Origin: Defluviicoccus sp.
Lineage (GTDB): Bacteria; Pseudomonadota; Alphaproteobacteria; Rhodospirillales; Defluviicoccaceae
Direction of reading: 5' to 3'
Length of the DNA stretch: 64,000 bases
Assembly (NCBI GenBank): GCA_029624735.1
Contig: JARSSM010000006.1
Location: 62,001 to 126,000, forward strand
In this document: piece by piece, positions 43,124 through 45,786 of the stretch
Position numbering within the stretch: the stretch's first letter is position 1
How the letters are laid out: every line of letters starts with the position of its first letter
Made by a program: the position numbers and the translations under genes
The notes under the pieces: model-generated
Told to the model about the DNA's origin: nothing
What the model saw: the letters and a program-made list of their open reading frames with translations, nothing else
Database searches by the model: none

Positions 43124-43213
43124 CCCGCGGACGGCAGGCTGCCGTACCGCTGCACCTCGAATGCAAGGAAGCAAGCGACCGAAACGCGGCTGCAAGTCTC
43201 GTTTCCGATTGCA

Positions 43214-43230
43214 ACGTTATATTATAACGT
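43214..43230. promoter_or_regulatory. Zur-like palindrome upstream of the porin gene
   Basis: ACGTTATA-T-TATAACGT is a perfect palindrome with 8-bp arms around one central base, 74 bases before the porin ATG. The core GTTATA-T-TATAAC matches the gammaproteobacterial Zur consensus core. A TATTAT-like -10 lies inside it. A zinc-dependent repressor site is the leading reading; another Fur-family or unrelated regulator is possible. Confidence 0.5.
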
Positions 43231-43304
43231 ATACCCATGCCGTTGATGACAGGCTTCGCTTAAGGCGACGCGCACAAATCGGGAAAGAAGGAGCCCAAGC
43301 CAAA

Positions 43305-44576
43305 ATGAGACCGCCTCGAAACCGCCCCTTGCTCTGGGCTGCAGCCGTTCTGATGTTACCGACCGCCGCATTGGCCGACGGCTTCGACGACTGGCTGCAG
43401 GGCGACTACGCCACCGGGACCTGGGGCGGTTTGCGGACGTCGCTTGAGGATGCGGGCGTCACCTTCGAAGGAGGGTACACGACCGACCTGATGGCGGTCC
43501 GCAACGGCAATGCCGGCTCGGGCGACGGCTGGGCTTATGCCGGCCGCATCGACTTCGGCGTCGAGCTTGATTTCGAGAAGCTCGCCGGGATTCCCGGCTT
43601 GAGCGTGTATGCCAGCGGCGCTTGGTCGTCGGGAAGCAACCTTTCCGACCAGCAGGGCGGCAACCTCTTCGCCGTGCAGCAGGTTTTTACCGGCCGTGAA
43701 ATCCGGTTGTCGCAGCTGTACGTCCAGCAGCGACTGTTCGAGGACGTCTTGACGTTGAAGGCTGGCCGCGTGACGACGGAAGACGATTTCCTCGCCTCCG
43801 ACATCTACGCCAACTACGTCAACGGCGGCATCAATGGCGTGCCGGGCAATGTCCCCGGCAGCAACTTCGGCTACACGACGGCGCCGTTTGCGCAGTGGGG
43901 CGCGGTCATTGCCGTCGAGCCGGTCGAGCACCTGCGCTTTGCCGTCGGTGTCTACAACGCGGACGAGAAAACCATCGACGATCGCAGGAACGGCACCCGC
44001 TTCACGCTCGACGCGGAAGACGGCGTGTTTGCCGTCGGTGAGGTGAGCTATGCCTGGAATCAGGTGGAGGAAGGCGAAGACGGCACCGAGCCATCATTCC
44101 CCGAAGGCCTGCCCGGCCTGGCCAAGCTCGGCATCTTCGGTGAAAGCGGCGACCGCGAGGACTTGAAGGACGGCGGCGACAAGGATGGCAATGTCGGCTT
44201 CTATGTGTCCCTGGAGCAGATGGTCTACCGGGAGGCGGACACGGCCGATCAGGGTTTGACGCCGTGGGCGGTGGTCGCCTACCAGCCGCGCGAGTCCATC
44301 AACGAGCTGCCCTTATTCTTCGGAGCCGGCCTCGTCTACAAAGGCCTGATCCCGGACCGCAACGAGGACAGCGCCGCCATCGGCTTCTTCTATGGCAAGC
44401 TTTCCGGCGACATCAATCCGGGCGGCTCGGAGAAGATCCTCGAGTTCGCCTACACGCTCCAGCTCGCGCCGTGGTTCTACGTCCGGCCGGACCTGCAATT
44501 CGTGTTCGACCCAGCCGGTGTCTCGAGTGCCGACACCGCGGTCGTCTTCGGCGGCGAAATCGGCATCACCTTCTGA
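43305..44576 (+). CDS. OprB-family (carbohydrate-selective type) outer-membrane porin
   Basis: 423-residue outer-membrane beta-barrel. The signal peptide ends near 26 (PTAALADGF). The mature start DGFDDWLQGDYATGTWGGLRTSLEDAGVTFEGG is typical of OprB-family porins. Barrel strands with alternating hydrophobic residues and aromatic girdles continue to the terminal Phe (GGEIGITF), the BAM recognition signal. The substrate is uncertain: the name comes from glucose porins, but the Zur-like upstream site and the adjacent nickel operon leave metal-related uptake open. AAGGAG lies 12 bases before the ATG. Confidence 0.88.
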   Translation: MRPPRNRPLLWAAAVLMLPTAALADGFDDWLQGDYATGTWGGLRTSLEDAGVTFEGGYTTDLMAVRNGNAGSGDGWAYAGRIDFGVELDFEKLAGIPGLSVYASGAWSSGSNLSDQQGGNLFAVQQVFTGREIRLSQLYVQQRLFEDVLTLKAGRVTTEDDFLASDIYANYVNGGINGVPGNVPGSNFGYTTAPFAQWGAVIAVEPVEHLRFAVGVYNADEKTIDDRRNGTRFTLDAEDGVFAVGEVSYAWNQVEEGEDGTEPSFPEGLPGLAKLGIFGESGDREDLKDGGDKDGNVGFYVSLEQMVYREADTADQGLTPWAVVAYQPRESINELPLFFGAGLVYKGLIPDRNEDSAAIGFFYGKLSGDINPGGSEKILEFAYTLQLAPWFYVRPDLQFVFDPAGVSSADTAVVFGGEIGITF

Positions 44577-44592
44577 GCGCGCTTGTGGCCCA

Positions 44593-44708
44593 GTGCAGCG
44601 ACCCAATCGGGCGATTCACGCCCGAGCTAGGTTGTCGCTGCACAACATATTGAATCGCGTGCACTTTCGGCACAAACAGAGCGAACATCCTGTTTGTGCC
44701 AGTGCACT
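44593..44708. repeat. Structured tandem repeat, unit A (116 bp)
   Basis: First copy of a tandem repeat with a 117-bp period. It has two hairpins. The first is GTGCAGCGAC (44593-44602) pairing with GTCGCTGCAC (44634-44643), with a nested TCGGGCG/CGCCCGA stem. The second is GGCACAAACAG (44669-44679) pairing with CTGTTTGTGCC (44690-44700), extended by GTGCACT/AGTGCAC. The 10-base loop of the second hairpin reads AGCGAACATC. It begins 16 bases after the porin stop. Confidence 0.92.
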
Positions 44709-44709
44709 C

Positions 44710-44825
44710 GTGCAGCGACCCAATCGGGTGATTCACGCCCGAGCTAGGTTGTCGCTGCACAACAGTTTGAATCGCGTGCACTTTCGGCACAAACAGGATG
44801 TTCGCTCTGTTTGTGCCAGTGCACT
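44710..44825. repeat. Structured tandem repeat, unit B (116 bp, inverted loop)
   Basis: Second copy, differing from unit A at three single bases plus the 10-base loop of the second hairpin (44797-44806). That loop reads GATGTTCGCT, the exact reverse complement of the loop in unit A. One of the substitutions turns a G-C pair of the nested stem into a G-U-compatible pair, so the fold is kept. The end of the unit overlaps the stop codon of the minus-strand gene that follows. Confidence 0.92.
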
Positions 44826-45786
44826 AGGTGACGAGCCCGGGCGATCCGGGCGGGCGGTCGCAGCGGCCGGGCGCGGCAGGGTCCTGTCCTTCGGCTTCGA
44901 AGGCGAGCCCGCCGCGCGCCGCCAGGATGCCGAGGGCGGTCTCGAACATCTGCCGCACGCCGGCGCGGACAGGAGGTGGCAGCATGGCTTCGGAGCGCAC
45001 GATCAGGTCGAAGCGATCGCCGCCGTCGTTCATCAGGCCGTCGAGTTCCAGCGCGCCCAGCCGGGTCAAGCGCACATTGATCACGAAGCGGCGGCCAAGC
45101 CCGTTGCTGCGCGCCGCCTCCCCTCGTTCCCGCCACTGAAGATAGAGCGGCGACGGGGTGGCATCGGCCGGGAGCGCGATCCACGCTTGGCGCCATTCGC
45201 CGAGCGCGTTCTCGCTCTCCTGCCGGCTGGCCGGCCGGGCAGCGTCGTCGCGTTCCAGGCGCTGAACCGATGCCTCGACGGCGCGCGCGATCGATGTCGC
45301 CCGCTCGCCGCTAGGCTCTTCCCCGACTTGACGGGAGAGCCCGACCTCACGGGAGAGCCCGACCTCACGGGAGAGAACGTCCAAGATGCGGATGGCGAAG
45401 CCGTCCAGCGTTCGCACTGCCGGACCGGTGGAGGCCGCTCCCGCGCCGCCTGCCGCTGCAGCCGTGGCTGGCATGGCCGGCGCTTGCGGAGATGCCCGCT
45501 CGTGGCGCGTTTGCGGCTGCCCAGGCCTCAAGCGCGCGTCCGGCAGCCCGCTCAGATCAACCACGACCGGGCCAGGCTCCACGGCTGTGGCGGCGGCCGA
45601 GGAATTCGGTGGCGAACCGGCAAACGCGAGCGTTCCGGAGCCTGCGGTTGGCAGGGCCGCGGGCGTTGCGGGCGCTGTTGGTGCGCGCGCAGCCGTCCCC
45701 CCGGCTGCAACCGTGCCGGTCAGGGGATGAGCGGGTCCCACCATCCCCAGCAGCGCCGTGGCGAGCGGTCCGATGGTGAGGGTCAC
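44824..45786 (-). CDS. FliK-like flagellar protein (second copy, divergent)
   Basis: 320-residue protein at the end of the flagellar operon. The first half is low-complexity Ala/Pro/Gly. The last 110 residues (FVINVRLTRLGALELDGLM and RAGVRQMFETALGILAARGGLAF) resemble the C-terminal domain of hook-length control proteins, although weakly. A true fliK is present at 57725-59281, so this may be an additional ruler-like or export-switch protein. An 18-bp triplicate (45322-45375) encodes LSREVG/LSREVG/LSRQVG in the linker. The start is a GTG at 45786. The function is an inference from position and C-terminal similarity. Confidence 0.6.
   Translation of the reverse strand: MTLTIGPLATALLGMVGPAHPLTGTVAAGGTAARAPTAPATPAALPTAGSGTLAFAGSPPNSSAAATAVEPGPVVVDLSGLPDARLRPGQPQTRHERASPQAPAMPATAAAAGGAGAASTGPAVRTLDGFAIRILDVLSREVGLSREVGLSRQVGEEPSGERATSIARAVEASVQRLERDDAARPASRQESENALGEWRQAWIALPADATPSPLYLQWRERGEAARSNGLGRRFVINVRLTRLGALELDGLMNDGGDRFDLIVRSEAMLPPPVRAGVRQMFETALGILAARGGLAFEAEGQDPAAPGRCDRPPGSPGLVT
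45322..45375. repeat. 18-bp tandem triplicate inside the FliK-like gene
   Basis: Three adjacent copies of an 18-bp unit, cccgac(c/t)t.acgggagag; the second and third are identical. They encode three LSR(E/Q)VG hexapeptides in frame, so copy-number change would alter linker length without a frameshift. Confidence 0.9.

Follow-up and report, generated by a model that had tools for sequence, protein, structure and literature searches.

An inverted hairpin loop in a tandem pair of mobile CTAG-ended repeats of Defluviicoccus

How can a hairpin loop come to be read backwards in one unit of a tandem repeat while the stem around it is unchanged? The question is raised by a pair of structured units lying between two convergent genes of Defluviicoccus sp., in a stretch of 64,000 nt analysed here as a whole (the window: contig JARSSM010000006.1, positions 62,001 to 126,000, assembly GCA_029624735.1, genome code G000). 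The pair is probably a two-copy array of a non-coding, mobile, 121-bp double-hairpin repeat with CTAG ends, resembling REPs/REPINs or MITEs, whose loop was inverted by template switching during or after growth of the array.

The tandem pair and its neighbours

The two 116-bp units, at 44593-44708 and 44710-44825, have a period of 117 and differ by substitutions at unit positions 20, 56 and 57 in addition to the loop change; coordinates and comparison agree in this with the original prediction. The loop AGCGAACATC at 44680-44689 is the exact reverse complement of the loop GATGTTCGCT at 44797-44806, both being enclosed by the perfect 11-bp arms GGCACAAACAG/CTGTTTGTGCC. This part of the prediction was also borne out by a repeat finder, which returned 44669-44700 and 44786-44817 as an inverted pair of 32 nt with 100% complementarity. 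The chance expectation of the pattern within the window is 0.00. Both units fold well above shuffled sequences (z ~ -8), and the structure is strong as RNA or as DNA.

The natural unit is 121 bp long with a CTAG-type foot at either end, and tandem neighbours share feet. With its feet, copy 1 covers 44590-44710 on the plus strand, from CCAG (a degenerate CTAG, 44590-44593) to the CTCG at 44707-44710, the junction foot common to both copies. It consists of a predicted hairpin 1 (44593-44643), the linker AACATATTGAATCGC (44644-44658) and a predicted hairpin 2 (44659-44707), in which arms at 44669-44679 and 44690-44700 enclose the loop in its derived, inverted orientation. Copy 2, also on the plus strand, covers 44707-44827 between CTCG and CTAG feet, with a predicted hairpin 1 at 44710-44760 and arms and loop at 44786-44817; here the loop has the orientation typical of the family, and the segment carries an A-to-T variant common to copy 1. 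An unpaired 3-nt TTC bulge in the lower stem of hairpin 2 (44666-44668 in copy 1) keeps the same direction in both copies, and the flip is therefore confined to the part within the 11-bp arms. An IHF-like match in the linker was spotted by eye only.

Both copies carry a GTTC loop allele unseen elsewhere in the family, as reverse complements of each other, together with a scarce CTAGG variant, which argues that the flip took place locally. Their linkers carry different variants (ATAT in copy 1, AGTT in copy 2), both found family-wide, so that the pair cannot have arisen by simple duplication of one unit alone.

The upstream gene (43161-44576, plus strand), which ends 16 bp ahead of the element, encodes a porin as predicted, of the OprB family. 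The convergent gene (44824-45786, minus strand), taken at first for the last gene of a flagellar operon, is a 320-aa ORF with no Pfam match; it adjoins FlhG-like and FlhF-like genes, and an FlhA-like gene is also found in this neighbourhood. The array ends on a CTAG (44824-44827); read on the minus strand, the TAG in it (44824-44826) serves as stop codon for this ORF.

Copies, targets and mobility of the family

Copies were read across the source genome (3.40 Mb, 28 contigs) and that of a sister species of the same genus (G001). Together the two genomes hold 108 copies at 96 loci, about 50 of these loci in the source genome and a similar number in the sister species. The suggestion that the pair might be a REP/MITE-like sequence is thus upheld: the element is dispersed in two species. 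It was undetected in nine further family genomes, three from the genus and six from elsewhere in the family, and in the viral contigs, plasmids and phages searched. In the 121-bp family unit, CTAG is followed by hairpin 1 (51 nt, counted from the G of CTAG), a linker of 15 nt, hairpin 2 with its 3-nt bulge and a closing CTAG. The feet vary to CTCG, CGAG and CCAG, and the terminal inverted repeat CTAGTGCA...TGCACTAG is 8 bp long counting the feet. Array neighbours share one foot (CTCG at most junctions in the source genome), hence the 117-bp period. One copy, at C19:91314, has lost hairpin 2.

A diverged copy (~79% identity to the others) lies between the genes for enolase and an FtsB-like protein and is nearly unchanged in both species (G000:C22:155212-155327, G001:C45:116963-117078). 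Common to both as it is, it was considered as a progenitor RNA gene, but this candidate was rejected, since none of the weak matches in two other genomes fell on a corresponding element.

A second palindromic family, F2, has about 20 copies over the two genomes (loci L228-L252 in G000 and L227-L255 in G001, e.g. L246, G000:C1:65670-65741). Its unit likewise has 121 bp, CTAG at both ends, two hairpins, 3-nt bulges and a linker, also of about 15 nt, similar in sequence to that of the first family; several F2 copies abut a first-family element and share its foot. The bulge has been lost or filled, leaving a perfect palindrome, in copies of both families (first family, G000:C13:51845 and C20:243544; F2, L249, L251 and L256). 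The alignment score between the families is 66, as against a mean of 44.7 (sd 7.2) and a maximum of 71 for 1000 shuffles, which is suggestive only of homology. Self-comparison of 864 kb revealed no third family of this CTAG-ended 121-bp kind. Another repeat of ~130 bp with inverted ends CGTCATTGCGAGGAGCG...CGCTCGCAATGACATG has three copies in the same 864 kb (e.g. G000:C11:27000-27130).

The element is mobile: most sites are common to the two species, whose orthologous flanks are 94.6% identical, and some are occupied in one species only. In the sister species the two flanks of the window site join directly at one CTAG, with no element between them. Ten readable empty sites carry CTAG (5), TTAG (3), TTAA (1) or TTAC (1). 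When occupied, the five non-CTAG targets (among L191-L205) have CTAG at the right end in all five cases and at the left end in four, the fifth having CTAA. Since CTAG ends are found even at TTAG, TTAA and TTAC targets, the element, and no simple duplication of the target, seems to determine the ends. Judging from these sites, the element appears to replace YTAR-type targets, as if overwriting them. At two sites the whole element is oppositely oriented in the two species (G000:C2:25576 and G001:C15:45884; G000:C19:91314 and G001:C7:44959), which could reflect in-place inversion or two independent insertions into one target.

CTAG itself is about eightfold rarer than expected in 864 kb of the source genome (C11, C20, C1 and the window; 327 against 2772). 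The terminal TAG of the element is the in-frame stop codon of a neighbouring gene at 27 of 57 merged sites, compared with 74 of 300 free CTAG sites (p = 0.001), and in the 864 kb one free CTAG in four is a stop codon. Among 81 scored sites, 36 lie between convergent genes and 6 between divergent genes, gene positions at most sites coming from our own codon-usage scoring and not from annotation.

Orientation of the loop and origin of the flip

All single copies, and all copies that end an array, have the loop GATGTACGCT or a variant of it. A search for both orientations in the genome and its relatives recovered the other orientation only in three arrays of the source genome; all copies of the sister species are unflipped. 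The flipped copies (C6:106593, in the window; C16:99495 and 99378; C17:95591 and 95474) are each followed by another copy. Over the two species, flipped loops are found in 5 of 12 non-last array copies and in none of 93 single or last copies (Fisher p = 8e-6). As copies within one array are not independent, the count was also made by locus: 3 of 7 arrays contain flips, against 0 of 89 single loci (~2e-4, by hand). Scored as members of the loop family, the flipped loops reach 12 to 18 bits once reverse-complemented but -10 to -16 in their present direction. No flipped loop was seen in hairpin 1, nor was any inverted loop found among the F2 copies read. At the sites orthologous to the flipped arrays, the sister species has no element (window), one unflipped copy (C16) or a pair without a flip (C17); it follows that the flips are derived in the source species, as is much of the growth of the arrays. 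At least two independent flips, and probably three, have occurred.

Most likely the loop was inverted when the DNA polymerase slipped in copying the hairpin, an event recorded in tandem copies only, and not by a genetic switch. After the split from the sister species, one copy would have occupied the CTAG that lies between the convergent genes as the stop of the minus-strand gene, and the TAG stop would have been restored by the CTAG at the end of the element itself. The single copy would then have become a tandem pair with one common 4-bp foot. During or after this pairing, a polymerase engaged on hairpin 2 may have changed strands inside one 11-bp arm, read the 10-nt loop in reverse and returned in the other arm, so that only the loop would be inverted and stem and bulge left intact. 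Inversion of a loop (spacer) has been attributed in published work to inter-strand template switching across short inverted arms (PMC8604942, PMC8794818). Other products expected of hairpin misreplication are also present in the family, namely removal or filling of the bulge, loss of hairpin 2 and the oppositely oriented sites, for which two insertions are also possible. The prediction that template switching or recombination across the inverted arms flipped the loop appears correct, recombination at a cruciform not being distinguished from template switching. Template switching alone should also flip single copies, where none is seen, and the link with arrays therefore needs an extra assumption. 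We favour the idea that flips are tied to arrays because extra copies of the arms lie nearby during array formation. There is a slight chance that the inversion is a by-product of replication or amplification of the element, for example of hairpin-primed copying in array growth by a non-RAYT mobiliser that would give its YTAR target a CTAG at either end; flipped loops would then be signs of recently made array copies.

Perfect 11-bp arms around a short core have the shape of tyrosine-recombinase core sites, and a site-specific recombinase inverting the 10-bp core would account for flips on more than one loop allele. Such a miniature invertible site, one of the functions first proposed, is nonetheless very improbable: orientation is near-fixed, with no flip in any of the 93 single or last copies or in the sister species, and no promoter-like site is found in the region. 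It is improbable, too, that the flip is an assembly or library artefact of tandem hairpins. The assemblies of both species appear to break at element repeats, several copies lying at contig ends in each, and array structure rests on these drafts, probably short-read; moreover, all flips are in arrays, the hardest sequences to assemble, and in one of the two assemblies only. A false join would nevertheless require an overlap of only 11 bases, and the array copies have substitutions of their own. By the original prediction, a single orientation in all other copies, and a flip seen in one assembly alone, would have counted against inversion; the flips are indeed restricted to the source genome, yet they are spread over three arrays and at least two loop alleles and are not a one-off. 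These flips might, on the other hand, mark a transposed lineage and not local inversion, the flipped loop belonging to a subfamily of its own whose members insert next to copies already present; the near identity of the C16 middle copy and the C17 copies, with one flipped allele in common, is in keeping with this. Such a subfamily is unlikely given three flipped alleles and a window pair that has the GTTC allele in both orientations, which requires a local flip.

The element might also be a structured RNA or a transcription terminator under selection, the orientation of its loop being of no consequence. The frequency of sites between convergent genes suits this idea, as does the divergence between orthologs, which is ~5% in stems against 8-11% in loops and linker (flanks, 5.6%). 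Changes on both sides of a pair are few, amounting to 8 cells compared with 162 cells of broken pairs, and at least three of the eight come from the copy with hairpin 2 deleted and are therefore alignment noise. The preserved stems had been read as a sign of selection on structure; with stems at about half the divergence of loops and linker but so few two-sided changes, selection on base pairing is not demonstrated, and the asymmetry could result from weak selection or from repeated correction of the arms by template switching. Neither of the specific roles put forward was recovered: no intrinsic terminator (GC-rich hairpin with T tract) occurs in 44400-45000, there being no U tract, and no Rfam match reaches the gathering score in the window. 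As the site is also empty in the sister species, a selected RNA or terminator seems a poor prospect. We infer template switching as the mechanism and array growth as its occasion, with no benefit to the cell, and the element is best viewed as a repeat, selfish or neutral, that the genome tolerates at gene ends.

Mobilisation and relation to known systems

Searches for a mobiliser covered the RAYT and DDE_Tnp_1 transposase families. The genome has no match to PF01797 (Y1_Tnp), to which controls respond, and none to DDE_Tnp_1; a mobiliser of either kind was rejected, no intact match being present. No gene cassette flanked by hairpin-1 copies was found. C-terminal RAYT-like fragments VHFNPVKHGLVPAAADWPYSTFK, missed by the Y1_Tnp profile, lie beside unrelated palindromes containing CGTCGGAT...ATCCGACG at G000:C11:146092-149221 (L264).

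With 108 copies, a sister species and empty sites, the family offers naturally occurring material for polarising a loop inversion and linking it to the growth of tandem arrays. REP-like, CTAG-ended and of fixed 121-bp length, it is accompanied by a second family of like architecture, and no transposase could be recognised among the families searched. An inverted loop, the case cautions, is not always a switch.

REP doublets, REPINs and BIMEs are likewise dispersed and extragenic, with two hairpins per unit and a location at gene 3' ends, and they too can form tandem clusters of almost identical units (PMC3116915, PMC3733652). The element is palindromic, multicopy and extragenic, forms an inverted pair with mirrored feet and lies mostly at gene 3' ends, as expected of the REP type. 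GTAG REPs, too, often supply the TAG stop codons of neighbouring genes with their termini (PMC3733652). However, the element ends in CTAG and not in an unpaired GTAG or CGTC tag, its hairpins are of ~50 nt instead of 20-40, and its unit is a fixed 121 bp made of two different hairpins. A RAYT is expected for GTAG REPs, CGTC REPs being said to lack one, whereas no intact Y1_Tnp gene was detected in this genome. Bacterial MITEs with a structured interior (RU/ERIC type) are similar in size, in being non-coding, in their short terminal inverted repeat (here CTAGTGCA) and in insertion polymorphism between species. In contrast to these, the element has no matching transposase among RAYT and DDE_Tnp_1, and its target is not simply duplicated, CTAG being found on both sides in four of the five TTAG/TTAA/TTAC cases. 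Finally, as in published inversions of inverted-repeat spacers (PMC8604942, PMC8794818), the spacer alone changes, inside perfect arms of more than 9 bp; whereas the spacers in the examples consulted are of 2-5 and 7-8 nt, the loop here is 10 nt long, lies within a mobile repeat and is tied to tandem arrays.
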